Both the position numbers and the translations under genes were made by a program. 64,000 nucleotides of DNA from Bathymodiolus brooksi (lineage: Eukaryota; Mollusca; Bivalvia; Mytilida; Modiolidae), in assembly GCA_963680875.1 (NCBI GenBank), contig OY804586.1, forward strand, positions 55,896,203-55,960,202, written 5' to 3'. The notes beneath the pieces are model-generated. The model saw only the letters and a program-made list of their open reading frames with translations, did no database searches and was not told the DNA's origin. Of the stretch, positions 6,316 to 62,700 are shown one piece after another; the stretch's first letter is position 1; each line of letters opens with the position of its first letter.

Positions 6316-6617
6316 TATAAAAATAGTTTATGCTGTAAGTAAATACAACCACATATTTATATGTTTGCGTCAAACAATTACATGGTTTATAAGTCGGGTT
6401 AACATTTCGTATCAAGATGTTACATTTAATAAGCACACGTCTAAAGGGCATTCAATCTTATTGAACAACACATCCAGACGTATAAATTGTGTCTCTACCT
6501 TCAAGAAATATATTCATTTTTATTTAGTTCTATTTGTTTATATATTAATAGTAAACTTAATCAAATTGGCGACTTTTATTCCAAAATACAGAATAATTTT
6601 CTATATTACGAAAGGGC

Positions 6618-21800: not shown

Positions 21801-22362
21801 AGCAGATGTATCGACTACTGGTCGGGTGGTAACCTCGGGAATAATAGTCCACCAGCAGATGTATCGACTACTGGTCGGGTGGTAACCTCGGGACTAATAG
21901 TCCACCAGTAGATGTATCGACTACCGGTCGGGTGGTAACCTCGGGACTAATAGTCCACCAGGAGATGTATCGACTACTGGTCGGGTGGTAACCTCGGGAC
22001 TAATAGTCCACCAGGAGATGTATCGACTACTGGTCGAGTGGTAACCTCGGGACTAATAGTCCACCAGGAGATGTATCGACTACTGGTGGAGTGGTAACCT
22101 CGGGACTAATAGTCCACCAGCAGAAGTATCGACTACTGGTCGGGTGGTAACCTCGGGACTAATAGTCCACCAGGAGATGTATCGACTACTGGTCGGGTGG
22201 TAACCTCGGGACTAATAGTCCACCAGGAGATGTATCGACTACTGGTCGGGTGGTAACCTCGGGACTAATAGTCCACCAGGAGATGTATCGACTACTGGTC
22301 GGGTGGTAACCTCGGGACTAATAGACTTATTGAGTGTTTAGTCGATATATTTTAATTAATTG

Positions 22363-32700: not shown

Positions 32701-35700
32701 AATCCGGCAGTGGTTAAAGGCCTGGATGGCTCAATGAGTTAGGTTGTTGGATTACCTAACAATTCATACAAGCCTATCACCAATATGGCGTGGGTTCATG
32801 CCCGGCTTTGTAAATTACAAAAAAGGGTGCACTCGACTCACAGCCACAAGTGATAAAGTTGACCAGTTGCTTGTCCATGGTCAGAGGTTCTCTCCGTGTA
32901 CTCCGGCTTCTTCCACCACAAAAACTGGTCACAATGATATTGCTGAAAGTGGCATTAAACACAATAAAATCAAATCAAATTAGTCAAAATGAGGTCTTTT
33001 TTACATCAACAAACCACATCGGTGATGTAATATTGGTATTTGTTCCTTCTCCACTTAGTATGCAGCAATAAGGAGAAAGAGCAATGACTGGTTGGCTCGG
33101 AATCAGGATAATGTGTCTGAGTGCAGCAACATGTCTACCTGCCGACTATTGTTTCAGTGAGCTAGCAAGCACTATAAAAACCAATTAAGTGAGTTGGTCT
33201 AATACAAAGTGAACATCATCATCTCATTGAATATAGCTTGTTCTCGCCATGTTATGGCTAAAAATATTAAACATTAAAGGCTTTAAACAATACTCACCCT
33301 CTAAAAATATGGTTTGGTGGTTTGGTTTATGGTGTTTAACGCACTTTAAACAATATTTCAGTTATATCGTGGGGGTAAATATGGGTAATAACAAAATTAC
33401 CGAACTCCGAGCAATCTTCCAAAGGGAAAGGCAAAACTCATAATTAAACAATCAGACAAAATCAGTCAACAATAAATTTTATTGGTTGAGGAAATCAGAA
33501 TTATCCAGAGAAAACCACCGACCTGTCGCAAGTCACTGACAAACATTATCACATTTGTTGTATTGAATACACCTCGCCTGTGCGGGGTTCAAACTCATAA
33601 CATCAGTGGTGATAGGCACTGATGTAGTTATAAATACTAATAATATGAGGTCGCTTGTATATCAGACATTTTAATCAAACACGATTCGCCAATGAATAGT
33701 TTATGGTTACATTTTAACATTTATTTTAATGCACAGTTAAGTTCCAGTTAATGTTGAAGTCAATGCTCTTTTATAGGACAAATTTGCTGTGGAGCTCCAT
33801 GTGGAACGGCATGTACTGACCCAGTTACTTCCCCTGTAAGTATAATTAGTAACTGAACATGAGTTTAATTTGTGTGTCCATGAATTTCATTTATGTTAAC
33901 ATCAAATTGCATGTGTCGACCCTATTAGATACTATAATTATATGTATTATAGTATCTAATAGGGTCGACACATGCAATTTGATGTTAGCATAAGATTGTA
34001 TGAATATTGACACGAACAGTTAAAATTAGGAAAAAGAGATGAAATAATAAAGAAATAAAGAAATTTTATTGAAAATAAATTTGTAAACTGAAAGTTAGAA
34101 AAAGGGGGGTGGTCCGTGCCACAAGCACCTGTGGTCTATGACTGGCAGTTTGTATTTTTATGTTATAGTCATGGTTAAGTGTGACAATTTGTATATTACA
34201 GCCGTCAATTAATAGATTTTATAGTCATGGTCAAGTGGGACAGTTTATATGTTGCTATATACTCATGATCAAGTTTGACATCGTGTATGTAATAGTATGA
34301 TCAAGCAAGACAGATTGTAGCTTACACTTTCTGCACTAAGACAACAGTATTTGACAAACACGACCAGTATATCTATTTGTTTTAATTAATCTTTTCTTTA
34401 TGTAGATGTGTTCTTAAGTCTAAAGATTTATAGGGTTGGTTCAGTTATATCGTGGCGGTCAGTTTTATTGGTGGAGGAAACAGGAGCACCTGGAGAAAAC
34501 CACTGACCTACCACAAGTAACTAACATGCTTTATCACATAATGTTGTATCGAGTACACCACCCCTGAGCAGGATTCAAACTCACAACATTAGTAGTGATA
34601 TCATCTGATTGCATAGCCATAGGTAGTTGTAAATCCAACTACCATAATATTATGACCGTGACGACCCCCAAAGATTTATACCAATACATTGTCTTAATAA
34701 CCAAGAGAGTTAAGAAATAGTTTTTTGAAGTTAGGCGCTTGGGGTTTTCTGTCATGACTGAATGGGATTTTTGAAATTATCATTAAACTTGCGTTAATGT
34801 CAATCATTCATTTTCTGCTCTGCATTATTTGGTACTTTCAAACCTGTATTAAGAGGTCACCTTAGGGACAAAGAAAATTTGGTCTTTTAAGACAGGTAAC
34901 ATCTTAAAAGAGGTTCAATTCACATGAAATTTTCTATGACAGGACAAGAAAAAAGTGACATTTTAATGTAGGTGACTGCTTAATATGGAATGACCACATG
35001 GCCATGTTTGACTGTATTAATTAGAATTAATCTGAATTCATATTTGAGCTATATATATAAATTCTTTAAGTATATGATTTGCCGTTTTATTTTCTCTCAG
35101 ACTTTGAAACCAAGACCAGGCGTTTGCCCAGCGATTAGAAAAGTTTCAAAAGACTTTTGTGCTCGTGCATTTGTAGTATCTGACTGCAAAGGGAAAGACT
35201 CTGATTGTCCAAAAGGTATACCATTACAGAGGACACAGCGTGTTTTTTTTTACATTTCCCACTATTCCGTCACGGAAATTAATCCTTTCCACGATGGCTC
35301 TGTCGCGGAAAACACGACGGAACAGGTAAACTGATATTTTTCATTCGCAGTGGTATCATTGTGGAAAGGATTAACTCTTATTACATATATAGGTCGAAAT
35401 TATAGGAAGGAAAGTAAATCCAGATATTGTACTGCACAATTGAATGAAATCCACAGGAAGCAAGATTTCGCACAAAAAACGGAAGTTGTGTTATAATTTC
35501 ACTATTTTGTCTTGACTATTTCGAAGTTACTTATATAATATATGTTATACTGGTATTTAGCACACATACCATGTATCACACAGCTTCTTTTTCGTTTTAT
35601 GTTTATTTTTTAAATAAAGTGAACTCAAAGATCATATTAAGCAACAAATATTATTTCTATTAAGAAAAGGTTGTGTTAGATGTTCTGAATGTGCTAGCAA

Positions 35701-38700
35701 GGTTGAAATATTGTCGCAACGTTGTCTCCACGTTGAACTACATTGTGCGCCTGCCTGGATCGTGGCAGTCAGTTTTATTGGTATAGGAAACCAAAGTATC
35801 TGTCAAAAATCACTACAGTTCACATACATTTGTGCCGAGTACACCTCATCACCAGTCTGAATCAAGCTCAACACTATTAGATGTGATTGGATTCCTTGGT
35901 AGATGGAAATACAACTACATGTACCATATGATCACGACCTGGGAGAAAAGGGTGATCTACTTCAAGTGTTCTAATGTAATCTATGGAAATATTTCTTTTG
36001 ATAAAAATATACCAGTCAGATGAAAACTACTATGACTTTTGCATTATGCAACATTATTTTTTTCTTATTTTAAGAAGAGCAGTGACAGATACAAAAATGA
36101 AATCTACGGAAGTATTTCTATGACTTTCGAATAGCGCAGCATTATTTTTTTTTTGTACCGGGGTAATTAGTAATTAAAATTTTTTTTTTATAAAGGGCCG
36201 TGACAGATACAAAGAAACCTTGAATATAAAATTTTACACAAACAAAAGATATTAGGTTCTCTAAACAGCATTTTACCTAACATGATAGGTGCCACATGTG
36301 GAACAGGAACTGCTTATCCTTCCGGGGCACCTGAGTTTACCTGCGGTTTGTAGTGTGGTTTGAGTTGCTCGATCTTAGTATTCTGTATAATGATTTGGAC
36401 ATTGCATTGTCTGTCATGGCTTCTGATTAACATAAAATGGAAGTTACAATGTTGTTTTAAATTATCGTCTGAATCTGTTCTAATTTTCTTTACAGCCGGA
36501 CAAAAATGTTGCCCTGGTCTGTGTGGGTCTCTAAGATGTCGAGATCCTATAACGGTATGTTACATTACGTTCTTTTTTTTTAACTGCACAAAATGAAAAA
36601 AAAATGAAAGGTAGATATCAAATATTGTTTGCACGGTGTGTTTCTGGAATAACCATCAGGTACACTTAAGCCCCTGTTACACGGTATAAAGCAAGTATCA
36701 TGATACTTGTATCATAAACCAAAAAATACATTGTAAACAGTGCTATTACTCTGTATCATGCAACTTTTAGAAGTTGCATGATACACACTTTGGGATATAT
36801 AGAACATGTTCTATTCTGTACAGCTAGGATCACGATACATTTTATCTCTGGCCAATCAGAGATCTTGGTTTGAGGTCAGGAGGTTACAACATCATCAACA
36901 AATAAAATCACATGGTCAGCACATGGTAAATAAAACATGGCTGGAAAGGGAAAGAAAGTAGTGATGTTATTTGGTCAAAGGAACAGATAGAAAATCTCCT
37001 CCATTTGTATGAACAGGTTCCCTCTGTATTGCTGAATTCCAGCAGGAATTAGCAAAATACAAACAGGGATGATAATGTCTTCATTGTCAGGATTCTCCAT
37101 TTTGGTTGGAACAATTTGTAGACAAGCTCTACATGAAACATGCTACTTGATTTAGTGTGTAAACTGACAAGGATTGTGATACAACAAGTTGCATGATACA
37201 AGTATCACGATACTTGCTTTACCGTGTAACAGGGCCTTTACGGCCAAAAGATTGGAAGCCAAATAATTTAATAACCATCAGGAGCAAGAAAACCAAAGGG
37301 TCTAAATAGAATAGCAAAAATCAGCTAAGATCACCTATACCTGAGAGAGGGGAACCTTGGTTTTAATAATATTTATTTAGGAACTGTAAATTTCGATAAT
37401 AATATAGCTTTTAAACCATGTCAGTGTCGAATCACTAACTAGTGGGCGGACGATGCCCTAGGGGACTAATAGTCCACCAGCAACAGAGGTGTTGACACAA
37501 CATTAGATTAAATCCTCGTATTTTGATATCATAATCGTCTGTTGAAATTGTAATTACTGGATGATTTTGTTGCATGTTAGAACAACCTGTATTGCCATGT
37601 TAACCATGTTCACTTTTTTAAATTATTACTGTAACGCTACACACTCTAGACCCAGTTACCGCATCGATGGTGTAACGGTTAGCATGCTCACCTCAAGTGC
37701 AGTAAATCACGGGCTCGAGACGGGTCAAACCAAACACTATACAATTGGTATTTATGGCTTCTCCGCTAAGCATCCAGCATTAAGGAGAAAGAGCAAAGAC
37801 TAGTTGGCTTGGTATCAGAATAATATGTCAGAGTGGAGCAACATGTCTACCCGAGAACTGTTATTTCAGTGAGCTAGCACTATAAAAATCCAACTTGGCG
37901 TGTTGGTCTCGCCATGATATAGCTGAAAAATTCCTGAATTGGCGTTAAACAACAATCACACACTCACTCTAGTTCCATTCATTTTTTTAATTTTTTTTAT
38001 CTCGTTCAGAATATGCCTTGAACATTTGCCACTGGAAGTTGAGCAATCAATCAAGTTGATAGAAAATAGCTTTCCGTATATTGTATAATGAACGCTGGAT
38101 CATAAATCGTACCTCTTAAGTCGATCAAAAAATGTTTGACAATCTCAATGTTTATCTATTTACAGGAAGATAGACACGGATATGTCCACCATAAATGTTT
38201 GACAATCTCAATGTTTATCTATTTACAGGGAGATAGACACGGATATGTCCACCATAAATGTTTGACAATCTCAATGTTTATCTATTTACAGGGAGATAGA
38301 CACGGATATGTCCACCATAAATGTTTGACAATCTCAATGTTTATCTATTTACAGGGAGATAGACACGGATATGTCCACCATAAATGTTTGACAATCTCAA
38401 TGTTTATCTATTTACAGGGAGATAGACCCGGATGTCCACCATTTAATCCTCACCTTCGCTGTATCATCTTCAATCTCAATGTTTATCTATTTACAGGGAG
38501 ATAGACCCGGATGTCCACCATTTAATCCTCACCTTCGCTGTGTCATCTTCAATCAACAATGTAATGCTGACAGAGACTGTGATGACGGTCAGTGTAATGT
38601 ATTTAAAGGTCACATTGTTATAATTCTGAGAAACTGTGACAAAGGTCGTATAGTGTTTAAAGGTCACATTAGTACAGTCAAACTTGATTTAAGCAGCCAC

Positions 38701-41700
38701 TTAAAAACTGGCTGCTAAATAAAGGTGACCTGTAATTCAATAGGTTCACAATTTTTTGGGTCAATTTACCATGGGGTTCAAAATACCATATGACACCGGA
38801 ATTAAAACTGTTTTGTCCCTGCCATGGGTACTCATCAGGTGGCTTTACATATATATATACATGTACATGTGTATGTATATATATATAATATATAGGCTGC
38901 CCATTATCTGTGCAACATCTCGAGAACTTTTCCCAACGTCATGTAGTTTGATGGCTTCAACTCTTTCGGATAACGTTAACACCTTGCGTGACATTTTTAT
39001 GACTGACAAAACAATGTCGTTTTTCTTTATTTAAAGACTTAAATTTTACTCACATGTTGTGAACTTACCTGTTACACCTGTTCTGGACATCTTAATTAAA
39101 TTAATCAACTTTAATTTAAACTTAATCATCGTTGATTGCCAAGTTCTAGCCTGGGGTTATTCTGTTGACATGTAAACTACAACAGGGGAGATAATTTGCC
39201 ACATGATCAAATAAGATGTCACATGACTGAAGTAAAAATTAATACTGTGTTAATCACGAAAGGTATCCGCAAGCGACAAAACAAATATATTTGTGACCGT
39301 TAAAATAGGTATTTTAACATTATTGGGACAAATTTTTTCTGTTCGTTGGCCGTGTAAAGGAAGTGACCGTTAATTTAAGTTAATTTATTACATAAAAATC
39401 CATGGGAGGACCTGGCAGTGTCCAGAAAAGAGAGGTGACCGTTTATTTCAAGTGACCATTAGGGCAAGTTTGACTATAATTATGATCCTATTTGTCATGG
39501 CCGTGATCGTATGGTAGTTGGATTTACAACTACCTATGCAATCAGTCCCTATCACCACTGATGTTGTGAGGTGTACAACAAACATTATGTGATAAAGTTT
39601 GTTGGTGACATGCGACAGGTCTGTGGTTTTCTCCGAGTCCTCCAGTTTCCTCCACCAATAAAACTGACCGCCATGACATAACTGAAATATTGTTGAAAGT
39701 AGCGTTAAAACACCATCCAACAAACAAACAAACAAATACAATTTTATTTGCAAGCGTCAGTTTAGTATATTTTGATTGGGTAGTAGTATTGTGTGTATCT
39801 TTCGACGAGTTTACACGTTAATAATTCTTATAGCTGGAACTACTTTCGTATCCAATGTAAACAAGTTGACTACAGCCTGACGTCTCATCAGGGGTGCATT
39901 TTATTTACAAAATCATGCTTCAGATTTTTTTGAAAATCAGAAACATGTTTTATGTGAAATAAAAACTTTGTGATTTACTTTAAATGATTTCAAAGATGGC
40001 TTCTATAGAGAATAAATATTTCAAATTGGATCATGCTCGATCTTCGATTTGCTTGATTCAAGATCATGATTTTGACATTAATTATAAAACGCGGAATCGG
40101 AATCCGGATTCTGAAACACGATTCAGATTTCGAATTAAAAAATGCGCCCCTGTTTATATTTACACATTTAAGCATAAAATTATTTAAAAGTTTATTTTTC
40201 TTTCTTTTTTAAACCCTCTAACCTCACCCAATCAGGGCCACCATTCCCTGTAATATATCCTTTCATTTGATTGATTTATTGTGGCTAATGCCACTTTCAG
40301 CAATATTTCAGCTATATCATGGCGACCAGTTTTAGTGGTGGAAGAAGCCGGAGTACACGGAGAGAACCACAGACCATGGGCAAGCAACTAGTAAACTTTA
40401 TCACTTGTGCCTGTGAGTCGAGTGCACCCTTTTTTCTAATTTACAAAGACAGGTGCGAACCCACGCCGTATTGATGATAGGCGTATATGAGTTGTTAGGT
40501 AATCCAACTACCTAATTCATTGAGCCACCTGGGCCCTCCGTAATATATACATGTATCATATAAGTATAAAATGTTAATTAGAACAGAGGCTAATGAACAC
40601 AAAGATAGCTGATCAAATTTTAAAACTATGCCACACCTTTTTGTCCATCTTCATAAAGAGATAATTGTATTTTTAACAGGGAAGTTGTGCTGTTTCCAAC
40701 GTGCATGTGGAACATCTTGTCAGAAGAAAGTAAAACCAACTCCAGTAAGTATTAGTGAAATAACCATCAATAAAAGTTACAGTCAAAGTCAATTTTGACA
40801 GTGTGTATGTTATAGTCATGGTCAAACATGACTTTTTGTAGCTTACAATGTCAGCATTAAAACTCCAGTTACAGTCAAAGTCAATTTTGACAGTGAGTAT
40901 GTAATAGTCATGGTCAAACATGACTGTTTGTAGCTTACAATGTCAGCATTAAAAAATCCACTGTTACAGTCAAAGTCAATTTTGACAGTGAGTATGTTAT
41001 AGTCATGGTCAAACATGACTGTTTGTAGCTTACAATGTCAGCATTAAAACTTCACTGTTACAGTCAAAGTCAATTTTGAGAGTGAGTATGTTATAGTCAT
41101 GGTCAAACATGACTGTTTGTAGATTACAATGTCAGCATTAAAACTCCACTGTTACAGTCAAAGTCAATTTTGAGAGTGAGTATGTTATAGTCATGGTCAA
41201 ACATGACTGTTTGTAGATTACAATGTCAGCATTAAAACTCCACTGTTACAGTCAAAGTCAATTTTGACAGTGAGTATGTAATAGTCATGGTCAAACATGA
41301 CTGTTTGTAGCTTACAATGTCACCATTAAAACTCCACTGTTACAGTCAAAGTCAATTTTGACAGTGAGTATGTAATAGTCATGGTCAAACATGACTGTTT
41401 GTAGATTACAATGTCAGCATTAAAACTCCACTGTTACAGTCAAAGTCAATTTTGACAGTGGGTATGTAATAGTCATGGTCAAACATGACTGTTTGTAGCT
41501 TACAATGTCAGCATTAAAACTCCACTGTTACAGTCAAAGTCAATTTTGACAGTGAGTATGTTATAGTCATGGTCAAACATGACTGTTTGTAGATTACAAT
41601 GTCAGCATTAAAACTCCACTGTTACAGTCAAAATCAATTTTGACAGTGAGTATGTCATAGTCATGGTCAAACATGACTGTTTGTAGCTTACAATGTCAGC

Positions 41701-44700
41701 ATTAAAACTCCACTGTTACAGTCAAAGTCAATTTTGACAGTGAGTTTGTTATAGTCATGGTCAAACATGACTGTTTGTAGCTTACAATGTCAGCATTAAA
41801 ACTCCACTGTTACAGTCAAAGTCAATTTTGACAGTGAGTTTGTTATAGTCATGGTCAAACATGATTGTTTGTAGATTACAATGTCAGCATTAAAACTCCA
41901 CTGTTACAGTCAAAGTCAATTTTGACAGTGAGTATGTAATAGTCATGGTCAAACATGACTGTTTGTAGATTACAATGTCAGCATTAAAACTCCACTGTTA
42001 CAGTCAAAGTCAATTTTGACAGTGAGTATGTAATAGTCATGGTCAAACATGACTGTTTGTAGCTTACAATGTCACCATTAAAACTCCACTGTTACAGTCA
42101 AAGTCAATTTTGACAGTGAGTATGTAATAGTCATGGTCAAACATGACTGTTTGTAGATTACAATGTCAGCATTAAAACTCCACTGTTACAGTCAAAGTCA
42201 ATTTTGACAGTGGGTATGTAATAGTCATGGTCAAACATGACTGTTTGTAGCTTACAATGTCAGCATTAAAACTCCACTGTTACAGTCAAAGTCAATTTTG
42301 ACAGTGAGTATGTTATAGTCATGGTCAAACATGACTGTTTGTAGATTACAATGTCAGCATTAAAACTCCACTGTTACAGTCAAAATCAATTTTGACAGTG
42401 AGTATGTCATAGTCATGGTCAAACATGACTGTTTGTAGCTTACAATGTCAGCATTAAAACTCCACTGTTACAGTCAAAGTCAATTTTGACAGTGAGTTTG
42501 TTATAGTCATGGTCAAACATGACTGTTTGTAGCTTACAATGTCAGCATTAAAACTCCACTGTTACAGTCAAAGTCAATTTTGACAGTGTGTTTGTTATAG
42601 TCATGGTCAAACATGATTGTTTGTAGATTACAATGTCAGCATTAAAACTCCACTGTTACAGTTAAAGTCAATTTTGACAGTGAGTATGTAATAGTCATGG
42701 TCAAACATGACTGTTTGTAGCTTACAATGTCAACATTAAAACTCCACTGTTACAGTCAAAGTCAATTTTGACAGTGAGTATGTAATAGTCATGGTCAAAC
42801 ATGACTGTTTGTAGATTACAATGTCGGCATTAAAGCAGCATGTATTTACATTAATATTTTCTTTTGTTATTAATAAGATATGTAAATCTATGTGTTATTT
42901 ATTCTAACACAGGCATTAAACACCATTCAATCAATCATATTCTACCGATTCATGACAACAAAATGTATAGTTAACAATACAAGAAAAAATTTATTTATTT
43001 AAGTATATAATAGTGTGTGTTTTTTCCAGACTCTGAAACCAAGACCAGGCGTTTGCCCAGCTGTAAGAGAAGTTCCAAAAGACTATTGTGCTCGTGCATT
43101 AGTATTATCTGACTGCAAAGGGAAAGATTCTGATTGTCCGAAAGGTACAAGTACATATATAGGTCAAAATAATAGGAAGAAAGGGAAATCCAGATGTAGA
43201 ATGAAAGAGAGGTTTTGTTTATTGGTGTTTTACACCATTTTCTGTAATATTTCAGTTATATCATGGCGGTTAGTTTTATTGAGGTAATCACACCAACCGG
43301 AACTCACATACAGTTGTGTCGAGTGCACCTCATTCTTGCGGGACTGAACTCAACAACAGTATAGGTATTAAGTTCTCTGATCAGAAATTTGCAGCACTAC
43401 ACTATAATTTCAAGTTATTACATATACATGTATAAACAGTATTTTGCATAAGGAAAACTTGAAGCTATATTTTCATGGGGGCCTGGGTGGCTCAATGAGT
43501 TGGCTAGTTGGATTACCTAACAACTCATACAAGCCTATCACCAATACGGCGTGGGTTTGCGCACAGCTTTGTAAATTACAAAAAAGGGTTCACTCGACTC
43601 GCAGCCGCAAGTGATAATGTTTACCAGTTGCTTGCCCATTGTGGGTGGTTCTCTCCGGGTACTCCAGCTTCTTCCACCACTAAAACTGGTCGCCATGATA
43701 TTGCTGAAAGTGATGTTAAACACAATCATTCAATCATATATTTTCATTGAAAATAAAATGGAAGTAGCGAAGTAGTTTTGTTTGATCCTCGTGGATATTG
43801 TATCAAATGGTATCTATTGCCTGAATCTGTTCTAATTTTCTTTACAGCTGGACAAAAATGTTGCCCTGGCCTGTGTGGAGCTCTGCAATGTCAAGATCCT
43901 ATAACGGTATGCTGCATTCTAAGGGGTGGTTGTGGTCGTGATCGTAGTTGGATTTACAACTATCTATGCAATCAGTACCTATCACCACTAACGTTGTGAG
44001 TTCAAAACCCACTCATGGCGAGGTGATAAAGTTTGTCAGTGACGTGCAACTGGTCTGGTTTTCCCAGGGTACTTCGGTTTCGCCATCAATAAAACTGACA
44101 GCCATGATATAGATGAATATTGTTGAAAGTGGCATTAAGCACCACAAAACCAAACCATTTAAATTCGTGAATTCCTATTTTCGTGGATATGTAAATTTGT
44201 GGATCCACAATATCCACAAAAATTGCTATACCACAAATAATAATGATTTCACAGTATCTTGCTGGATCATGAATCATGCATGTCAAGTCGATCATTAAAT
44301 GTTTGAGAATCTCAATGTTTATCTTGTATGATCTATTTACAGGGAGATAGACCCAGATGTCCACCATTTAATCCTCACCTTCGCTGTATCATCTTCAATC
44401 TCAATGTTTATCTATTTACAGGGAGATAGACCCGGATGTCCACCATTTAATCCTCACCTTCGCTGTATCATCTTCAATCTCAATGTTTATCTATTTACAG
44501 GGAGATAGACCCAGATGTCCACCATTTAATCCTCACCTTCGCTGTATCATCTTCAATCTCAATGTTTATCTATTTACAGGGAGATAGACCCAGATGTCCA
44601 CCATTTAATCCTCACCTTCGCTGTATCATCTTCAATCTCAATGTTTATCTATTTACAGGGAGATAGACCCGGATGTCCTCCATTTAATCCTCACCTTCGC

Positions 44701-47700
44701 TGTATCATCTTCAATCTCAATGTTTATCTATTTACAGGGAGATAGACCCGGATGTCCTCCATTTAATCCTCACCTTCGCTGTATCATCTTCAATCTCAAT
44801 GTTTATCTATTTACAGGGAGATAGACCCAGATGTCCACCATTTAATCCTCACCTTCGCTGTATCATCTTCAATCTCAATGTTTATCTATTTACAGGGAGA
44901 TAGACCCGGATGTCCTCCATTTAATCCTCACCTTCGCTGTATCATCTTCAATCTCAATGTTTATCTATTTACAGGGAGATAGACCCGGATGTCCACCATT
45001 TAATCCTCACCTTCGCTGTATCATCTTCAATCTCAATGTTTATCTATTTACAGGGAGATAGACCCAGATGTCCACCATTTAATCCTCACCTTCGCTGTAT
45101 CATCTTCAATCTCAATGTTTATCTATTTACAGGGAGATAGACCCGGATGTCCTCCATTTAATCCTCACCTTCGCTGTATCATCTTCAATCTCAATGTTTA
45201 TCTATTTACAGGGAGATAGACCCGGATGTCCACCATTTAATCCTCACCTTCGCTGTATCATCTTCAATCTCAATGTTTATCTATTTACAGGGAGATAGAC
45301 CCAGATGTCCACCGTTTAATCCTCACCTTCGCTGTATCATCTTCAATCTCAATGTTTATCTATTTACAGGGAGATAGACCCGGATGTCCACCATTTAATC
45401 CTCACCTTCGCTGTATCATCTTCAATCTCAATGTTTATCTATTTACAGGGAGATAGACCCAGATGTCCACCATTTAATCCTCACCTTCGCTGTATCATCT
45501 TCAATCTCAATGTTTATCTATTTACAGGGAGATAGACCCGGATGTCCTCCATTTAATCCTCACCTTCGCTGTATCATCTTCAATCTCAATGTTTATCTAA
45601 TTACAGGGAGATAGACCCGGATGTCCACCATTTAATCCTCACCTTCGCTGTATCATCTTCAATCTCAATGTTTATCTATTTACAGGGAGATAGACCCGGA
45701 TGTCCACCATTTAATCCTCACCTTCGCTGTATCATCTTCAATCTCAATGTTTATCTATTTACAGGGAGATAGACCCGGATGTCCACCATTTAATCCTCAC
45801 CTTCGCTGTATCATCTTCAATCTCAATGTTTATCTATTTACAGGGAGATAGACCCAGATGTCCACCATTTAATCCTCACCTTCGCTGTATCATCTTCCAT
45901 CTCAATGTTTATCTATTTACAGGGAGATAGACCCGGATGTCCTCCATTTAATCCTCACCTTCGCTGTATCATCTTCAATCTCAATGTTTATCTATTTACA
46001 GGGAGATAGACCCGGATGTCCACCATTTAATCCTCACCTTCGCTGTATCATCTTCAATCTCAATGTTTATTTATTTACAGGGAGATAGACCCAGATGTCC
46101 ACCATTTAATCCTCACCTTCGCTGTATCATCTTCAATCTCAATGTTTATCTATTTACAGGGAGATAGACCCGGATGTCCACCATTTAATCCTCACCTTCG
46201 CTGTATCATCTTCAATCTCAATGTTTATCTATTTACAGGGAGATAGACCTGGATGTCCACCATTTAATCCTCACCTTCGCTGTATCATCTTCAATCAACA
46301 ATGTAATGCTGACAGAGACTGTGATGGCGGTCAGTATAATATACATGTACTTTATAGTGCCTATATTTGGTGGTATAAACACCGTCAATATTTCATAAGT
46401 TAGGAAATACAGTAACCTAATATCTACTAGTATTTACATGTGAACTCAATCAACTGTAACGAATCAACACAAAAGAAAATCAATATAATGGCAGACGATT
46501 GCAGCCAAAATACATTTATTAGTGCACAGGTACGACTGTCCCTCAAAGTGAAAGATTTTCACTTACGGTGTCAGCATACAGCACTCAAATTGATGGTTGG
46601 TTGGTTTTTGGTGTTTAATGCCACTTTCAGCAATATTTCAACTATATCATGGCGACCAGTTTTAGTGATGGAAGAAGCCTGAGTACCCAGAGAGAACCAC
46701 CGCCTATGGGCAAGCTACTGGTAAACTCTATCACTTTTGGCTGCAAGTCGAGTGCACCCATTTTTATAATTTACAAAGCCGGGCGCGAACCCATGCCGTA
46801 TTGCACTCAAATTGATATTCTACAATAATCTGTTTTATTGTTAGAATAACATTACCATCTGAACAAGTAATTGTGTCCTACAATATCATGCTAGTCCTCC
46901 TGGTTAACCATATATCTCTGTCGTCCAAAAATAATGTTATTTCATTTGTGATGTTATTATTCAATTTTGTAGACCATCTTGTCTTGTCATGTGTATTTAT
47001 TGTCTATGTTAAATTTTCAAGCAGGAATCCCTTACAGCTATACTTAACTGACCAGGAAACCCCCAACCATGGGTAATGAGTGAGTGATCGTTGTTTAACT
47101 CAGCAATTTTTCAGCTATATCATGGTGAGAACAAGTTAATTTTCAATGAGATGATGATGATGAGGTCCACTTTGCTGAGTTGGATATTTATAGTGCTAGC
47201 TCACTGAAACAACTGTCTGAGGGTAGACATGTCGCTCCACCTGGACACATTATTCTGATTCCGAGCCAACCAGTCTTTGCTCCCTCTCCTTAACGCTGCC
47301 TGCTTAGTGGAGAAGTGACAAATACCAATTTTATAGTCTTTGGCTTGACCTGACCGGAGCTCGAACCCATGATCTACTGCACTCGAGGTGAGCATGCTAA
47401 CCATTATGCCACCGATGCGGTCTCCAACCATGAGTAAGTGTCTGAAAATCTTTACATTTGAGGTTGGTCTAGAGGCTGCAAACTAACGTCATTGGTGTTT
47501 AGTCCGGGTTCAGAGGTCAACTACCCTATCCACTCGGGGCCACCTTCCCCGTAATGTATGCATATATCATACTTTGTTTTTATTTACACTATTTGTCTTT
47601 GTAAGCAAGCCAGTACAATATAATATAAAACCCGGAAATCGACCGACATTGCATTCAATTGTGTTCTGACTGAAGTAGTTTTGGTACGTTGTGTATAATA

Positions 47701-50700
47701 TAACAAACAGTTCATGGCCGAATGGCAGTTTATGGACCGGTCTGTCATCCCCAAAATATTATATGGACCTTGGCTTTGCTTAGGTCCATAAACTGCCATA
47801 TGGCCCTCAGTGTAATGAACTATTTGTATTATATAAGTATGAAATGTTATTTAGAACAGAGGCTAATGAACATGGAGAAAGTTTATTAAAATATTAAAGC
47901 TATAGCACACCTTATAATCCATCTTTCATAAGCAGAAAGTTTTTTTTTATTTAACAGGGAAACAGTGTTGTTTCCAACCTGCTTGTGGAACATCATGTCA
48001 GAAGAAAGTAAAACCAGATCATGTACGTATTGTGTTTTTTTATGTTTATGGTGTTTAATGCCACCTTCAACATAATTTCAGTTATATTGTGGCAGTCAGT
48101 TTTATTGGTGGACGAAACCGGAGAAAGCCGTGGATCTGCCGCAAGTCACTAACAGAATTTACCACATAATGTTGTATCGAATACACCTCGCCTGAGTGGG
48201 ATTCAACTCACAACTTTAGTGGTGATTGTCACTGATTGCATTGGTAGTTGTAAATCCAACTACCATAGGGCCGAAGTGGCTCAATGAGTTAGGTAGTTGG
48301 AATACCTAACAACTCATACAAGCCTATCACCAATACGGCTTTGTAAATTACAAAAGAGGTTGCAGTCGCAAGTGATAAAGTTTGCCAGTTGCTTGCCCAT
48401 CGTCAGTGGTTCTCTCCGGGTACTCCGGCTTCTTCCACCACTAAAACTGGTCGCCATGATATAGCTGAAATATTTCTGATAGGCTTGTATGAGTTGTTAG
48501 GTAATCCAACTACCTAACTCATTGAGCCACCTGGGCCCTACAACTACCTAACTCATTGAGCCACCCGGGCCCTACAACTACCTCACTCATTGAGCCACAC
48601 GGGCCTTACAACTACCTAACTCATTGAGCCACCCGGGCCCTTCCACACATCTAGATTCTAATCATCGTCGGTAATCCACTATCAATCAAGCTCATTCTTT
48701 CATTACTCGATGATCAATTTATATGGAAACCTCCTTTTTTTTGTCTGTTCTGTACCTAATCTATATTTATCTTCCATAACAACAATCAAATACAACTATT
48801 AGTCATATTAAACAGATTATGTAAGAAACATTCTGATTGGATGATACAGAATTATACTTTTGTAATGAAACCAATGAAAAATACTCATGAATTATCCATG
48901 GATATTGGAGAATGTTCTACCATAATAAAGTTTCTAGTAATGGATTAAAATGTTGATATTTCCATCTCTTTCAATATGAACTTGAAGGCTAGGGGCCATT
49001 TAGGTATCACACTCATTTTAAGGTATGAGTTTTGCTCATTGTTGAACAGCATATACTGTGACGATTGATATGTAGAACAGCAGTAACAAGCACTGTTCCT
49101 TTACCTTAATTTGTGTCTAATTTGGGAATATGGTGTGTAATGTCACATTCAACAATATTTCAGTTATATCATGGCGGTCAGTTTTATTGATGGAGGAAAT
49201 AGAGTACCCGTGGAAAACCACTGACCTGCCATAAATCGCTGACAAACTTTATGTGTCTAAGTGTAAAATTGAATATCCTCTCATGTTCAATTGGAACCAT
49301 ATGTTTTATTATTTACAGAGTCAATGTCCACCTATTAGGAGAGACATCCATTGTAAACGTTATGACAGACAGTGTTCCTCTAACAAAGACTGTAAACACG
49401 GTACAGTATATTAAAATATTTAGCTTTCTATACAGGCAATTGTGAATATTGTTTTTTATCCTGCTATTATGTGATTTTGAGCACTAATAAAGGAGAACAA
49501 ATTGAGTGTTATTTAGTCATGGTCCTAATGAAGACTGTAAGCACGGTACTGTATATAAAAATTAAACCCACCTATTGTGAATTGTGATTTTTTTTTTTTG
49601 TAATTTAAAATTTTTAAAGCATTCATTTCATTTCACATGATCGAGTATGATTTAATTGATTTATTTATTTATTGTGTTTAACCAGTATCACTATGAGAGT
49701 TGTGATGCGACGATTAGTTCTCACAACAGGCAAGAACTGTCGCAGATATAAAGTCTTGTACCAACACACTATGTAATGAATTTTAAACAAAAAAACAAGG
49801 GTTGAATTAAAATTTATAAATACTCTGAGGGAGACTACATTTTGTGCATGACGTCACGTTATCTGCCGTTCATTCACCAATGTCACTTTACTGTGTTTTG
49901 ACTCGCATTCCATTGATATGACGTCATGACAATGTAGTTCGGCAGAGAACGTCTCATGCAACGTCACGCTATTCTTTTATCACCACAGTGTGGTGATACA
50001 ACGTCTTGTATCAGATAGGCGACTTTCTTAAATTTCAAAGGAAAACGTACATAATGTTAGATAAATGGTTTTATTCATATATTTTAGGTACCATCTGTTG
50101 TACTGTTGATTGTGGTACAGCCTGTAAACTGCCAGTAAAGCCTCCCGGTTCAGGTAAGTTTATTTAGATATCTTGGGTACCATCTGTTATCCTGTTGATT
50201 GTGGTACAGCCTGTAAACTGCCAGTAAAGCCTCCCGGTTCAGCTAAGTTTATTTATATATCTTGGGTACCATCTGTTGTCCTGTTGATTGTGGTACAGCC
50301 TGTAAACTGCCAGTAAAGCCTCCCGGTTCAGGTAAGTTTATTTATATATCTTGGGTACCATCTGTTGTCCTGTTGATTGTGGTACAGCCTGTAAACTGCC
50401 ACTTAAGCCTCCTGGTTCAGGTAAGTTTATTTAGATATCTTGGGTACCATCTGTTGTCCTGTTGATTGTGGTACAGCCTGTAAACTGCCAGTAAAGCCTC
50501 CCGGTTCAGGTAAGTTTATTTATATATCTTGGGTACCATCTGTTATCCTGTTGATTGTGGTACAGCCTGTAAACTGCCAGTTAAGATTCCCGGTTCAGAT
50601 AAGTTTATTTAGATATCTTGGGTACCATCTGTTGTCCTGTTGATTGTGGTACAGCCTGTAAACTGCCAGTAAAGATTCCCGGTTCAGGTAAGTTTATTTA

Positions 50701-53700
50701 GATATCTTGGGTACCATCTGTTGTCCTGTTGATTGTGGTACAGCCTGTAAACTGCCACTTAAGCCTCCCATTTCAGGTAAGTTTATTTATATATCTTTTT
50801 TTTTTTTTATTTTTTTTTTTTTATAGTCAGGATTTTATAAATTCCCTTACATCACCACCTGACTATGGTGTGACAGGAGTTTTCAAAAATAAGTTTTGTG
50901 ACTACATTGGTTTTACATTTTGATAAACAAAATAAAGAAATAATAATATATAATAGTAATAAACACTTTCATTCATCTTTCACACACATTCTCTTACCAT
51001 TTTGTTTTTCTAAAATATTTGATTGCTCCTGACATTTTGTACTTAATCAAAAAAGCTGAAAAAAGAATCTCATCACTATATGAATCAAACAAACAAAAAA
51101 TATTATGATTAGTTGAAAATATATTGTAAGGGGGTCCACATTTTTTCAAATGCTAAAATGGTATTGTTTTTCTTTGATATATATTGTTCAAGTGAACGGT
51201 ACCACATAATTTTATGTTTAAATTCTACAATATTTAGCCTTTGTTCATTGAGTTTGCACTTGAAGTTGTAATTTTTTGCAATAATTGAAATCAAATTAAC
51301 AAGAAGATCCCCTGACTCAAAACCAAAGAAATATTCTTTTTTGTCAAAAATCAAATTCTTGTAATATTGTTTTAATTGTTTTGACAAAGATTTGAGAAAA
51401 ATTTGTGTCATAGGACAGTCAAAGAATAGATGTTCAATAGTTTCATCATGAATTTTGCAAAATGTACATAAATTAGTATTCTTGAGCTTTATTTTATGTA
51501 AAAAGGAATTGGTAGGAATGATCCTGTGTAACAATTTAAATTGAAAATTTTGAAGATATGAGTTTCTACAAGATTTTTTTAAAATAATAAAATATTTTGA
51601 CCAATTTGTTATTTCACAATTAAAAAAAGAAGTTTTTCCCATTTGGAAAAATTTTCTGTTGGTAAAGAAATGATTGCATTCACAAGACCTTTATAAACAA
51701 ACCTAACATTTTTACTATGAACTATTCTCTCTAAATAGGCATCCTTTTTACTAAGTATGTCGAAATTTACATTTACACAGTTTTCCTTCAGATGATCTTT
51801 GATGTACTTGGGAACATTTGACACCAGACTATAGTACTTCAAAAAATTATTGGTATTCAGTTTATTTCTAGTCTGTTCAAAAGTATAAAAATTACCAGAA
51901 TGTGGGTCAATAAGATCACATAAATACTGCACAGTATGTTCTATCCATCTAATATAATAATTTAAATCAGTTACTGGTACAAAATTAAGGATATCAAGAG
52001 ACAATAGTTCATTAGTATTCATCTTTGTATAAGGTTTTGCAAAATGATAGCTAGACAGAACATCTTTCCAAAAAGGATTTGTAAGCTTCATAGCAACTTC
52101 CTTTAGCTTTTCTTTCTGAAAAGTTAAAATTCTTTCACCGCCATAGCTTTGAAGATTGAATAATAATACTTTTTGCCAATCACCATCTAAATTGGAAAAT
52201 AATCGTTTAATCCAACCTACTTTCAGATAAATATTAAATGATTGAAGATCTATCATTTTCAAACCCCCTGATATATATCACCGATTAAGGTACTTCGCTT
52301 TATCTTATCTGACTTCCCGTTCCATATGAATTTATAAAAAAGTGAATTTAAATCATTTATTTTTGTCTGAGGTAAATTTGGTAAAGATGTCAGTAAATGA
52401 ATTAGCTTTGGTAGTGCAAGACTTTTTATAACTGTAATTTTACCAAGTAATGTCAGTTTTCTATGCTGCCAACTTTTTAGTATTGCCTTAACCTCCTTGA
52501 TTTTTTTGGTAAAATTTATATCTGTAATACAGTTTAAATCAAGTGAAAAATCAATTCCCAAAACCTTAAAGTTTTCATGAGACCAATTTAGTTTCATATT
52601 TGGACAAATAATTTGATCTGAATACTTCTTGTTTCCAACCCACACAGCTTTTGTTTTGGATGAATTCATTTTTAAACCAGACACCTTGTAAAAAGATTCA
52701 AAACATTCAAGAGCCTCCCTCAATGAATTTTCACTCCCATCTAGAATAAGAAAGGTATCATCAGCATACAAACTTATGAGAGATTCAACTTCATTGATAA
52801 TAATACCATGAATGTCTTGGTTGGCCTTCAATTTTAATGAAAGCAGCTCCACACCGATTATAAACAAATAAGGTGAAAGCGGATCACCTTGTCGACAGCC
52901 TCTTTCTAGAGAAAAAAAATTTGACATGTGACCATTATTTATAACACAACTTTTGGCTTTTGAATAGAATAGTTCAAACCATTTACAAACAGATGGTCCA
53001 AAATTAAAACTTGAGAGGGCTTTTTTCAAAAATTTCCATTCAACTGAATCAAATGCTTTCTCGAAATCTACAAGAAGTAAAAGACCGGTTTTGTTATGTT
53101 GTTCAAGATAATGCATCAAATCATACAACAGTCTTGTATTTTCCCCAATAAATCTTCCTTTTATAAAACCTTTTTGTGTATCACTAATAATAAATGGTAA
53201 TAGAGGTTTAATTCTATTAGCAATTACAGCAGAAGCTATTTTAAGGTCAGTATTTAATAAACTTATTGGTCTCCAGTTGCCAATAAAACGCCTGTCCTTT
53301 CCTTCTTTTGGAATACATGTTATGACTCCCTGATACTGAAAATCAGTGAAGCTTCCAGACTCATAGGCTAAATATAATGACCATAAAGCAATGGACCAAT
53401 ATCTTCCCAAAAATGTTTTATAAAAATCTACAGTATATCCATCAGAACCTGGACTTTTTCCATTTGTCATTAACTTTAGTGATTGGGCACATTCTTTAAA
53501 TGTTATATTACCTTCACACAAGTTCTTCTGTGAGTTTAATATTATGATTAAAAATGGACTCGTCATTACAATCTAAATTTGTTGTTGAATACAATGTTTT
53601 GTAAAAATCGTGTTGTTGAAGGAGAATTTTAGATTGATCTGATATATGATGACCTGCGTCATCAATAAGCTCAGTTATAGTTTTTTTAATAAAATTTTTC

Positions 53701-56700: not shown

Positions 56701-59700
56701 TCAAATCTTTCACTTCTCTTAAGTCTAGCCATAAGTCCTAGATTACTTTGTGTAATATCGTCGTGGAAACGAAAGTCTTTCTTTAAATTTCTCTTCTTTC
56801 TCATAATGTTAATTTTAACTTCAGTGTTTTTCACTTTTACAATCACAGGTCTAATTCCTCTATCTTTACCAGGTATTCGGTGTATAGCTTGCACATCACT
56901 AGGTGAGATGTGGACCTTGAGCTCAGTGTTAACTAGTTTCACAAAGTCCTCTCTCAGGTTTTCATCCTTTCTCTCTGGGAAATTCAACATTCTGATATTG
57001 TGCTTCAGAGCATCAACAGATCTTCTATCAGCATCATTTAGCTTTTCCTCTAAAGAATCCATTTTCTTATCTTTGTCTCTCAATCTTTCCTTTAAGTTTT
57101 CATTCTCAATCGCAAAAGAATCAATTTGATCCTGCATCTTTCCAGTTTGTTCCTTCACTTTACTTTCAATTTCCTGTGAGAATGATTTTTTAAATGTTAC
57201 TAATAATTTGTTGACAATAGATGTAACGAGGTCATTCAGATCACTTTGCTTGACTAAACAGTTAACTGCACTTTCTAGATCAGTTTTGGTACAAGTAGCC
57301 TGAAGGGATTTTTTAATTTCACCTAAGTCACTGTGAATACTCATTAAATCAATTCCTTCCACACTGTCTTCTGCCACATCTGAATGAGTTCTTTTGTCAC
57401 GCTTGGGAGGATTTTGTTTAGAAGTATTCCCTGTCTTTTTTGCTGCAAGCATAGTTTGCACAGTCTTCACATCTTTTTGACTATTATCCCCAGTAGGCAT
57501 AATGGTTGGTAAATCACTTTAAAAAGTCCATATCAATAGCCTTTAAATGTTGATTACAAGAATCTGTTTTTCATTGATTAAGATCACAAAATTCAATGTT
57601 TTTCCATTCAAAAAGCATTTTTATAAAGCTGAAAAATTTCCACACGAGATGATTCTATTTATAATGTTGTATTACATCAAAATCCAGCTTAAAAAAGCCA
57701 AAAACTGCAGAGCTGAAATTAACTCACTACTCTAATGGCGGCCATCTTAGTCTTATTTATATATCTTGGGTACCATCTGTTGTCCTGTTGATTGTGGTAC
57801 AGCCTGTAAACTGCCAGTAAAGCCTCCCAGTTCAGGTAAGTTTATTTATATATCTTGGGTACCATCTGTTGTCCTGTTGATTGTGGTACAGCCTGTAAAC
57901 TGCCAGTTAAGCCTCCTGGTTCAGGTAAGTTTATTTATATATCTTGGGTACCGTCTGTTGTCCTGTTGATTGTGGTACAGCCTGTAAGCTGCCAGTTAAG
58001 CCTCCCGGTTCAGGTAAGTTTATTTATATATCTTGGGTACCATCTGTTGTCCTGTTGATTGTGGTACAGCCTGTAAGCTGCCAGTTAAGCCTCCTGGTTC
58101 AGGTAAGTTTATTTATATATCTTGGGTACCATCTGTTGTCCTGTTGATTGTGGTACAGCCTGTAAACTGCCAGTTAAGCCTCCTGGTTCAGGTAAGTTTA
58201 TTTATATATCTTGGGTACCGTCTGTTGTCCTGTTGATTGTGGTACAGCCTGTAAGCTGCCAGTTAAGCCTCCCGGTTCAGGTAAGTTTATTTAGATATCT
58301 TGGGTACCATCTGTTGTCCTGTTGATTGTGGTACAGCCTGTAGACTGCCAGTAAAGCCTCCCGGTTCAGGTAAGTTTATTTATATATCTTGGGTACCATC
58401 TGTTGTCCTGTTGATTGTGGTACAGCCTGTAAACTGCCAGTTAAGCCTCCTGGTTCAGGTAAATTTATTTATATATCTTGGGTACCGTCTGTTGTCCTGT
58501 TGATTGTGGTACAGCCTGTAAGCTGCCAGTTAAGCCTCCCGGTTCAGGTAAGTTTATTTATATATCTTGGGTACCATCTGTTGTCCTGTTGATTGTGGTA
58601 CAGCCTGTAAACTGCCAGTAAAGCCTCCCGGTTCAGGTAAGTTTATTTATATATCTTGGGTACCATCTGTTGTCCTGTTGATTGTGGTACAGCCTGTAAA
58701 CTGCCAGTTAAGCCTCCTGGTTCAGGTAAGTTTATTTATATATCTTGGGTACCATCTGTTGTCCTGTTGATTGTGGTACAGCCTGTAAACTGCCAGTTAA
58801 GCCTCCTGGTTCAGGTAAGTTTATTTATATATCTTGGGTACCGTCTGTTGTCCTGTTGATTGTGGTACAGCCTGTAAGCTGCCAGTTAAGCCTCCCGGTT
58901 CAGGTAAGTTTATTTATATATCTTGGGTACCATCTGTTGTCCTGTTGATTGTGGTACAGCCTGTAAGCTGCCAGTTAAGCCTCTCGGTTCAGGTAAGTTT
59001 ATTTATATATCTTGGGTACCATCTGTTGTCCTGTTGATTGTGGTACAGCCTGTAAGCTGCCAGTTAAGCCTCCCAGTTCAGATAAGTTTATTTATATATC
59101 TTGGGTACCATCTGTTGTCCTGTTGATTGTGGTACAGCCTGTAAGCTGCCAATTAAGCCTCCCGGTCCAGGTAAGTTTATTTATTTATCTTGGGTACCAT
59201 CTGTTGTCCTGTTGATTGTGGTACAGCCTGTAAACTGCCAGTTAAGCCTCCTGGTTCAGGTAAGTTTATTTTATATCTTGGGTACCATCTGTTGTCCTGT
59301 TGATTGTGGTACAGCCTGTAAGCTGCCAGTTAAGCCTCCCGGTTCAGGTAAGTTTATTTATATATCTTGGGTACCATCTGTTGTCCTGTTGATTGTGGTA
59401 CAGCCTGTAAGCTGCCAGTTAAGCCTCTCGGTTCAGGTAAGTTTATTTAGATATCTTGGGTACCATCTGTTGTCCTGTTGATTGTGGTACAGCCTGTAAG
59501 CTGCCAGTTAAGCCTCCCGGTTCAGGTAAGTTTATTTATATATCTTGGGTACCATCTGTTGTCCTGTTGATTGTGGTACAGCCTGTAAACTGCCAGTTAA
59601 GCCTCCTGGTTCAGGTAAGTTTATTTATATATCTTGGGTACCATCTGTTGTCCTGTTGATTGTGGTACAGCCTGTAAGCTGCCAGTTAAGCCTCCCGGTT

Positions 59701-62700
59701 CAGATAAGTTTATTTATATATCTTGGGTACCATCTGTTGTCCTGTTGATTGTGGTACAGCCTATAAGCTGCCAGTTAAGCCTCTCGGTTCAGGTAAGTTT
59801 ATTTATATATCTTGGGTACCATCTGTTGTCCTGTTGATTGTGGTACAGCCTGTAAGCTGCCAGTTAAGCCTCCCGGTTCAGGTAAGTTTATTTATATATC
59901 TTGGGTACCATCTGTTGTCCTGTTGATTGTGGTACAGCCTGTAAGCTGCCAGTTAAGCCTCCCGGTTCAGGTAAGTTTATTTATATATCTTGGGTACCAT
60001 CTGTTGTCCTGTTGATTGTGGTACAGCCTGTAAACTGCCAGTTAAGCCTCCTGGTTCAGGTAAGTTTATTTATATATCTTGGGTACCATCTGTTGTCCTG
60101 TTGATTGTGGTACAGCCTGTAAACTGCCAGTTAAGCCTCCTGGTTCAGGTAAGTTTATTTATATATCTTGGGTACCATCTGTTGTCCTGTTGATTGTGGT
60201 ACAGCCTGTAAACTGCCAGTTAAGCCTCCTGGTTCAGGTAAGTTTATTTTATATCTTGGGTACCGCCTGTTGTCCTGTTGATTGTGGTACAGCCTGTAAG
60301 CTGCCAGTTAAGCCTCCTGGTTCAGATAAGTTTATTTATATATCTTGGGTACCATCTGTTGTCCTGTTGATTGTGGTACAGCCTGTAAGCTGCCAGTTAA
60401 GCCTCCCGGTTCAGGTAAGTTTATTTATATATCTTGGGTACCATCTGTTGTCCTGTTGATTGTGGTACAGCCTGTAAGCTGCCAGTTAAGCCTCCCGGTT
60501 CAGGTAAGTTTATTTATATATCTTGGGTACCATCTGTTGTCCTGTTGATTGTGGTACAGCCTGTAAGCTGCCAGTTAAGCCTCCTGGTTCAGGTAAGTTT
60601 ATTTATATATCTTGGGTACCATCTGTTGTCCTGTTGATTGTGGCACAGCCTGTAAGCTGCCAGTTAAGCCTCCCGGTTCAGGTAAGTTTATTTATATATC
60701 TTGGGTACCATCTGTTGTCCTGTTGATTGTGGTACAGCCTGTAAGCTGCCAGTTAAGCCTCTCGGTTCAGGTAAGTTTATTTATATATCTTGGGTACCAT
60801 CTGTAGTCCTGTTGATTGTGGTACAGCCTGTAAGCTGCCAGTTAAGCCTCCCGGTTCAGGTAAGTTTATTTATATATCTTGGGTACCATCTGTTGTCCTG
60901 TTGATTGTGGTACAGCCTGTAAGCTGCCAGTTAAGCCTCCCGGTTCAGGTAAGTTTATTTATATATCTTGGGTACCATCTGTTGTCCTGTTGATTGTGGT
61001 ACAGCCTGTAAACTGCCAGTTAAGCCTCCTGGTTCAGGTAAGTTTATTTATATATCTTGGGTACCATCTGTTGTCCTGTTGATTGAGGTACAGCCTGTAA
61101 ACTGCCAGTTAAGCCTCCTGGTTCAGGTAAGTTTATTTATATATCTTGGGTACCATCTGTTGTCCTGTTGATTGTGGTACAGCCTGTAAACTGCCAGTTA
61201 AGCCTCCTGGTTCAGGTAAGTTTATTTATATATCTTGGGTACCATCTGTTGTCCTGTTGATTGTGGTACAGCCTGTAAACTGCCACTTAAGCCTCCCATG
61301 CCGTATTGGTGATAGGCTTGTATGAGTTGTTAGGTAATCCAACTACCTAACTCATTGAGCCACCCGGGTCCTACAACTACCTAACTCATTGAGCCACCTG
61401 GGCCCTACAACTACCTAACTCATTGAGCCACATGATCCTCCATTTTAAACTTTAAGTTTAATGTCATAATTTAGACATTTGTTGTTTTTTTTATGGTTAT
61501 GCTTATGGGGCTTAACGCCATTTTAATCAATATTACAGTTATATCGTGGCGGTTAGCTTTATTGGTGAAGGAAACTGGAGAAAACCGCAGATTTGCCACA
61601 AGTCACTAGCAAACTTTATCACATAATGTTGTATCGAGTACACCTCACCATGAACGGGGTTTGAACTTACAACTTTAGTGGTGACAGGATCAGATTGGTA
61701 GTGATTGCACAGGTAGTTGTTAATCCAACTACCATGCGATCAAGACCACAATGGCCCCATTTTTTGTTGTTGTTTTTTTTTATCTAAATTATATTGTGTA
61801 GGATGAATTATAGGAATAAACACATTTTTTCTGGAGTTTATTGATGTATAACCTGGACCAATTCACTCACAAACAAATAAAAATCTGGGGTTATACATCA
61901 ATAAACTGCGGAAAAAATGTGTTTAATCCTTATAATTCTGTAACTAAGTTTTTTTTTTCTTCATTTGTTTTGAAAATTTACATTTGGGGATCCCCAGTAT
62001 GCACACATACATTCCATCGGTGTGTGTCGGCCATGAATAACAAAATGAACTAACCTTATTTCCTACTTTAAACTAGACAAGACGGTGATGTAATTAAGTT
62101 ACCGATATTTTCCAATTTGATGGCATTTTGCATTTAGCTACTCAAACAAGTAAAATGCCCACAAAATCGTAAAATAAATCAGTAACCAGCTTGTGTCAAT
62201 CAGCATCCCTTGTAAACAACGTCACAGGATGACGATATATTACAAGTCAAAGTCGATAGATGGTTGTCTTAAGTATTTTTTCCGGAATTTTTTGTTTATG
62301 TCAACAATACAAGCTTTTTTTTTCATTGGCATTTATTTTTTTATTTCATATCTAACAATAATTGTCGATTATTAACAATAAACATTGTTTCTTTTATCTT
62401 TTTTTATTATTGGGAATCCAAGCCGCCATTTTGTTTACATTACGAAAAAAGTAGTCCGCTGAACATCGTCTATCGAAAAATAAACTGACAAAACCCCGCC
62501 TCCATAAGCGCTTATACCCAATCAGAGTATAGGATTTCTAATTATGTAAATCATATAAGAATTATTACAAGAGCAACATATTGATTTGATATTTTAATAT
62601 TTTATTTATGCGATGTAACCTAGTTTGGGGTAGCCGTTTATGAAAAGAGTAAACAGTACCAAACCAGGTTATACAAATATAACCTGTTCAAAAATTTCAA

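Follow-up and report, generated by a model that had tools for sequence, protein, structure and literature searches.

A minisatellite spanning an intron-exon boundary multiplies the acceptor of one exon in a predicted WAP/Kunitz gene of the bivalve Bathymodiolus brooksi

In a 64,000-nucleotide stretch of the Bathymodiolus brooksi genome (GenBank assembly GCA_963680875.1, contig OY804586.1, positions 55,896,203 to 55,960,202 of the forward strand; hereafter the window, positions being counted from its first letter), a predicted gene for a protein with WAP and Kunitz domains contains a minisatellite whose 79-bp unit covers the boundary between an intron and the exon that we designate N6. The array places 24 decoy acceptors in front of the only acceptor that is followed by a complete exon. 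It is very likely a case of the boundary-spanning repeats described in amphioxus as 'mirages': a duplication confined to one end of an exon would have little effect on splicing, the acceptor closest to the donor would be used and the other copies would simply be part of the intron.

Structure of the Acceptor Array and of Its Gene

Tandem Repeats Finder (TRF) reports at 44331-46304 a tandem repeat of period 79 with 25.0 copies, 98% matches and 0% indels. A motif scan of the same region finds 25 AG-G junctions, all 24 intervals between them being 79 bp, in agreement with the spacing of 24 × 79 bp that a first-pass annotation had claimed from the letters alone. The copies of the exon begin at 44343 + 79k, with k running from 0 to 24, which puts the final one at 46239. 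All 25 copies contain the string TTACAG+GGAGATAG, cut after TTACAG; ATTTACAG is shared by 24 of them, the copy at 45607 having AATTACAG instead. The 26 nt immediately 5' of the true N6 acceptor are identical in 20 of the 24 decoys. So regular a spacing at 98% identity is not a chance pattern. Within its first 24 units only 6 of the 79 positions are variable, two of these being common variants, and the mean pairwise identity is 98.5%. Higher-order repetition was not significant (match at lag 3 of 0.50 vs. 0.32 expected, P = 0.056; at lag 5 of 0.50, P = 0.066), and a three-unit higher-order repeat was set aside on these values. Phage records compared with the 101 bases at the last copy gave no match.

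Each unit consists of 21–26 nt of intron and 53–58 nt of exon; the shared exon part has to be given as a range because the join between units sits in a 5-nt microhomology, CAATC. The first-pass annotation was thus right in placing the unit across the boundary, while its exact figure of 53 nt of shared exon has to be widened to 53–58 nt. The 24 decoy units (44343-46238; TRF, motif scan and translation) each hold an acceptor and this first part of the exon. The rest of the exon and the donor GGCG|GTCAGT are found, as had also been claimed, in the last copy only, which forms the sole complete version of N6 (46239-46329, 91 nt), encoding the N-terminal half of a WAP domain. All 24 decoys, when translated, run into a TAG after 28 codons, and the last copy is free of stops up to the donor. 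Use of a decoy with retention of the sequence up to the donor would therefore yield a message with an early stop, and the truncation expected by the first-pass annotation holds for every decoy. Directly upstream of the array lies exon C5 (43848-43906), whose donor GTATGC must pair with one of the 25 acceptors.

In the gene, 15 predicted exons were mapped on the plus strand at 30513-63857 (all exons and boundary arrays described here are on this strand) by their acceptor and donor contexts, and N6, which the first-pass annotation had numbered exon 12, is the 11th of them in a map that was drawn less carefully upstream of 30.5 kb. The mapped exons encode by turns the N-terminal and the C-terminal half of a WAP domain (hence N1 to N7 and C1 to C7), forming seven pairs, and are followed by a terminal Kunitz exon in phase with C7 (63687-63857; exon mapping and Pfam). 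On division by three the exon lengths leave a remainder of 1 in the N exons, 2 in C1 to C6 and 0 in C7 and the Kunitz exon, and one reading frame fits the lengths and frames of all 15 mapped exons if each array is counted as a single exon. The joined protein scores 105.3 bits against PF00095 (WAP; curated cut-off 20.8), with six stretches passing for the seven exon pairs, and 73.9 bits against PF00014 (Kunitz; curated cut-off 21). The product is accordingly predicted to be a protease-inhibitor-like protein with WAP and Kunitz domains.

A protein search returned 140 relatives, and the results given here cover the 120 that were listed. The best E-values among these belong to arthropod papilin-like proteins, which cover just 15–16% of the query. 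Of four relatives read over their whole length, P0042 and P0056 are proteins of the mussel Mytilus coruscus, and P0014 and P0025 have the order WAP-WAP-WAP and then Kunitz with an ITG-(N/D)RPGCP junction. P0025 is 58% identical to the part from N5 to C7 over 155 aligned columns and keeps the order N5-C5-N6-C6-N7-C7, with N6 present once and the junction ITGDRPGCP. The domain with the N6 junction was found in 3 of the 120 listed relatives (ITGNRPGCP, ITGDRPGCP and IKGNRPGCP), in one copy each. Five of six strings that would be produced by reading through a decoy were found in none of the 120; the sixth, GKFIY, was found in P0077 only, where by its letters it is an ordinary Kunitz motif that is also present inside the window's own Kunitz exon. 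The single-copy junction in the relatives provides weak backing for use of the last acceptor in B. brooksi, as the relatives' own genes may be free of arrays. The best 60 of 135 solved structures matched by sequence are Kunitz inhibitors, aligned mostly over the Kunitz part, which have no bearing on splicing.

Further Boundary Arrays in the Same Gene

Beyond the array that the first-pass annotation had described, three more boundary duplications occur in this gene: a smaller acceptor array at exon N4, a mirror-image donor array at exon C7 and a degenerate donor duplication at exon N7. The N4 array (38166-38496; TRF and motif scan) contains five decoys. The acceptors of four are spaced 63 bp apart, the first of them showing a GGAAG variant; the fifth is followed by a 79-bp step with a join identical to that of the N6 array. 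The 63-bp units end elsewhere than the 79-bp units and therefore stem from a separate duplication event. Exon N4 itself (38497-38587, 91 nt) is a paralogue of N6 and is 96.7% identical to it, as compared with 83–90% for the remaining paralogous exon pairs, which suggests gene conversion between 38497-38587 and 46239-46329. The join shared by N4 and N6 may either predate the duplication of the module or have been spread by gene conversion. A weak repeat over the N4 donor (38572-38616 vs. 38629-38670; 78% over 45 nt, score 19) is perhaps an old boundary duplication.

At C7 the other side of the exon has been multiplied. The first 89-bp array (50.1–50.8 kb) has eight units in which the donor boundary is repeated, the donor GT being kept in six of the eight, while the acceptor AG is found in one unit and is replaced by GG in the other seven. 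Exon C7 proper (50088-50153, 66 nt, donor TCAG|GTAAGT) is the sole copy with the acceptor AG at the exon start, and the seven extra exon-like units (50154-50797) retain the donor GT in five cases and have GG in place of AG in all seven; by the absence of an acceptor in the 89-bp units we mean the absence of AG at the authentic position. A second 89-bp array of about 40 units by TRF (57753-61297) lies in the intron that follows C7 and precedes the Kunitz exon, and among the 39 units caught by the pattern none has the acceptor AG and 36 have the donor GT. Its start is 95% like the first 89-bp array and its downstream flank is 95% like 48471-48599; by these likenesses it looks like a moved copy. 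At N7 (49319-49400; exon mapping) the donor boundary at 49380-49417 recurs in degenerate form at 49525-49562, with 87% identity over 38 nt or, alternatively, 74% over 78 nt.

Origin of the N6 Array

The join between units of the N6 array reads TTCAATCTCAATG and its counterpart in the exon TTCAATCAACAATG; the paralogous intron at N4 reads GACAATCTCAATG, and the intron 5' of the first N6 copy reads GAGAATCTCAATG. Comparison of the join with these exon and intron sequences therefore places the duplication breakpoint within the shared CAATC or AATC, which fits a microhomology-mediated tandem duplication. We suppose that a duplication at CAATC between N6 and the preceding intron copied the acceptor together with part of the exon, and that subsequent turnover would have enlarged the array to 25 near-identical copies. 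Minisatellites usually expand by slippage or unequal exchange. The possibility that the array is part of a transposable element was rejected, the unit being built from the gene's own intron and exon.

Choice of the Acceptor

Since the donor and the 3' part of the exon were not copied, only one pair of acceptor and donor in the array gives an exon of normal size (91 nt). Definition of the exon from the single downstream donor, which the first-pass annotation had put forward, would naturally explain why the last acceptor is used and is in our opinion the best reading: the donor-proximal acceptor would be picked and the other 24 copies would leave with the intron. The same logic may operate in mirror image at C7, an exon with multiplied donors whose extra copies have all lost the acceptor AG. 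Such duplications could endure because splicing is hardly affected by extra copies of just one end of an exon, and the transcripts that do use a decoy would be removed as nonsense-carrying. We infer this from the anatomy of the locus and from the amphioxus precedent.

The decoys are no weaker than the genuine site: 23 of the 24 match or surpass the score of the true N6 acceptor on a rough matrix made from the gene's own sites (13 acceptors or 14 donors), a comparison that shows only that the decoys are not weaker. As they hardly differ from the true acceptor on either side of the cut, what decides among the sites should be chiefly their position and the donor with which they pair. The N6 array may for this reason serve as a natural test of exon definition, with the C7 donor array as a mirror test within the same transcript. 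The idea that the copies are real alternative exons was rejected, because the decoys have no donor and the three GT sites inside the 79-bp unit score 0.7 to 1.2, the 15 mapped donors reaching 2.1 to 11.3 in leave-one-out scoring.

Several circumstances weigh against this reading. The matrix separates true acceptors poorly, their leave-one-out scores ranging from −5.9 to 16.6. The first decoy lies 436 nt from the upstream C5 donor and is transcribed first, so that under intron definition it would be favoured. Four of the seven extra C7 units possess another AG (TTTATTTAG) about 13 nt 5' of the lost one. Use of the last acceptor is, finally, a deduction made on predicted exons, and the copy number is that of one assembly.

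Comparison with Known Boundary-Spanning Repeats

Tandem repeats of exon-intron sequence were first named 'mirages' in the amphioxus Adh3 gene (Canestro and others 2002, cited in PMC3087553), and they were later found in the amphioxus globin genes BflGb6 and BflGb9, where both the 5' and the 3' boundaries can be affected (PMC3087553). The N6 array agrees with the definition of a mirage in having a minisatellite-like unit over an intron-exon boundary, the exon being predicted with the backing of Pfam and of the relatives, and in the B. brooksi gene too either boundary of an exon is affected, with acceptor arrays at N4 and N6 and a donor array at C7. The many extra copies with AG or GT and the high identity of the units are further features in common. 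The two haplotypes of BflGb6 have 6 and 3 units, with a unit identity of 81–100% (PMC3087553), whereas the N6 array has 25 units in one array. The B. brooksi locus also differs in belonging to another animal group and in combining acceptor and donor arrays within one gene. According to the authors, the data on Adh3 and reverse transcription PCR on the globins suggest that regular splicing is undisturbed (PMC3087553), and a paper that likens duplications in PGBD5 to mirages states that those of Adh and troponin C make no aberrant mRNAs (PMC3902484). In contrast to these amphioxus cases with authentic splicing reported as undisturbed, the array described here is known from the genomic sequence of a single assembly.

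In human genes within segmental duplications some variable tandem repeats likewise coincide with exon-intron boundaries and have been discussed as giving rise to new introns (PMC2812944). The human variable repeats of all kinds, those at boundaries being only a part, have on average 30-bp units repeated four times, unlike the N6 array, and a further difference is that alternative transcripts retaining the repeat are often supported there (PMC2812944). A model of Rogers (cited in PMC3087553) derives intron gain from tandem duplication of AG/GT proto-splice sites; the B. brooksi array resembles it as a local tandem duplication that includes splice signals and differs in that an existing intron has been lengthened and no new intron is seen. 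The phenomenon itself is thus already described, and the present locus is a further mirage, longer than the globin examples compared. No report of boundary-spanning arrays in molluscs was found among the open-access papers searched, most subscription papers being outside the reach of that search. With this locus mirages likely extend beyond lancelets to molluscs, and one may ask how widespread they are.

Alternative Explanations

The first-pass annotation had also suggested that the decoys lower productive output. In its full form this explanation, which we consider very improbable, would make the array a splicing rheostat: the decoys compete with the true acceptor and the copy number sets the share of productive mRNA, the remainder going to nonsense-mediated decay. 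The TAG after 28 codons from all decoys and the scores of 23 of the 24, which equal or exceed that of the true site on the rough matrix, speak for such a device. In intron-like sequence, however, a reading frame is expected by chance to hit a stop within a few dozen codons, and the amphioxus mirages are reported to leave splicing undisturbed (PMC3087553, PMC3902484). Nothing in the present data points to reduced output, and a regulatory role of the decoys is unsupported here; the observation of the array itself was right and precise, and the reasoning from exon definition gives the best reading. A broader version would make boundary-spanning minisatellites widespread in animals and subject to a one-sided rule, under which either acceptors or donors could increase in number indefinitely provided that the exon's other side is kept single, with copy number acting as a heritable and fast-mutating control of productive mRNA. 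We think this improbable as well; were it true, the clearest case would be the present gene, in which 25 acceptors precede a single donor and a single acceptor is followed by a series of donors. About equally doubtful is an artefact of assembly that has inflated or otherwise falsified the copy number. Long near-identical arrays are hard to assemble, and the draft-genome version of one amphioxus mirage seems to have been aberrantly assembled (PMC3087553, supplement legend). Against such an artefact, the first 24 units differ from one another at the 6 variable positions, two of them with common variants, and the paralogous exon N4 has the same 79-bp join with a different copy number.

Somewhat less improbable, though still doubtful, is that splice boundaries are a mutational hotspot for the birth of minisatellites in this genome, beyond mere tolerance of the arrays that arise there. 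In a post hoc placement test on the collapsed gene region of 25,150 bases, a boundary is crossed by three of the six local repeat families (P = 0.024); the figures are four of seven (P = 0.004) if the 63-bp array is counted apart and two of five (P = 0.044) for TRF families only, the weak match at the N4 donor being left out of the count. This test replaced a control with random positions for the boundary scores, which was swamped by the arrays (35% of 224 positions scoring at least 40). The families were, however, listed by hand after they had been seen, in a region picked for the finding. Some rows were taken for dispersed elements or for a single AT-rich block and were accordingly omitted or pooled: 43611-44117 was omitted as consisting of dispersed elements and 34160-34253 because it is related to the 94-bp unit, and the nine rows at 55–56.5 kb became one family. 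Paralogous exons are not independent, 24 of the 30 boundaries tested for nearby repeats score 13 or less, i.e., nothing, and the other long arrays of the window sit away from mapped exons. The C6 donor scored 17 among the 30 boundaries, its match falling outside the boundary. The excess of arrays on boundaries is therefore only a hint.

Further Repeats

The 94-bp array at 40776-42834, with about 22 copies and a degenerate relative at 34160-34253 after exon C2, was considered as another boundary array and rejected, as it begins 31 nt past the end of exon C4 and excludes the donor. The window starts within or at the beginning of a 66-bp array of 86 copies (1-5680). Two arrays have 43-bp units, one at 14894-19943 with 117 copies and a shorter one at 13863-14283 with about 10, most units of the latter carrying a donor-like GGTAAGTAA on the minus strand in a region with no mapped exon. 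The unit of a 53-bp array at 21445-22324 has GACTAATAGTCCACCAGCA in common with a site near 37464 and probably derives from an interspersed repeat. The segments 6044-6318 and 26012-26201 are copies in opposite orientation, 92–93% identical and with GGCGGATCCAGG-like ends, and perhaps represent a small transposon. Tandem blocks of 34 bp at 48507-48641 and 61340-61431 resemble a piece of a dispersed element, similar to short interspersed elements (SINE-like), that has many copies in the window.

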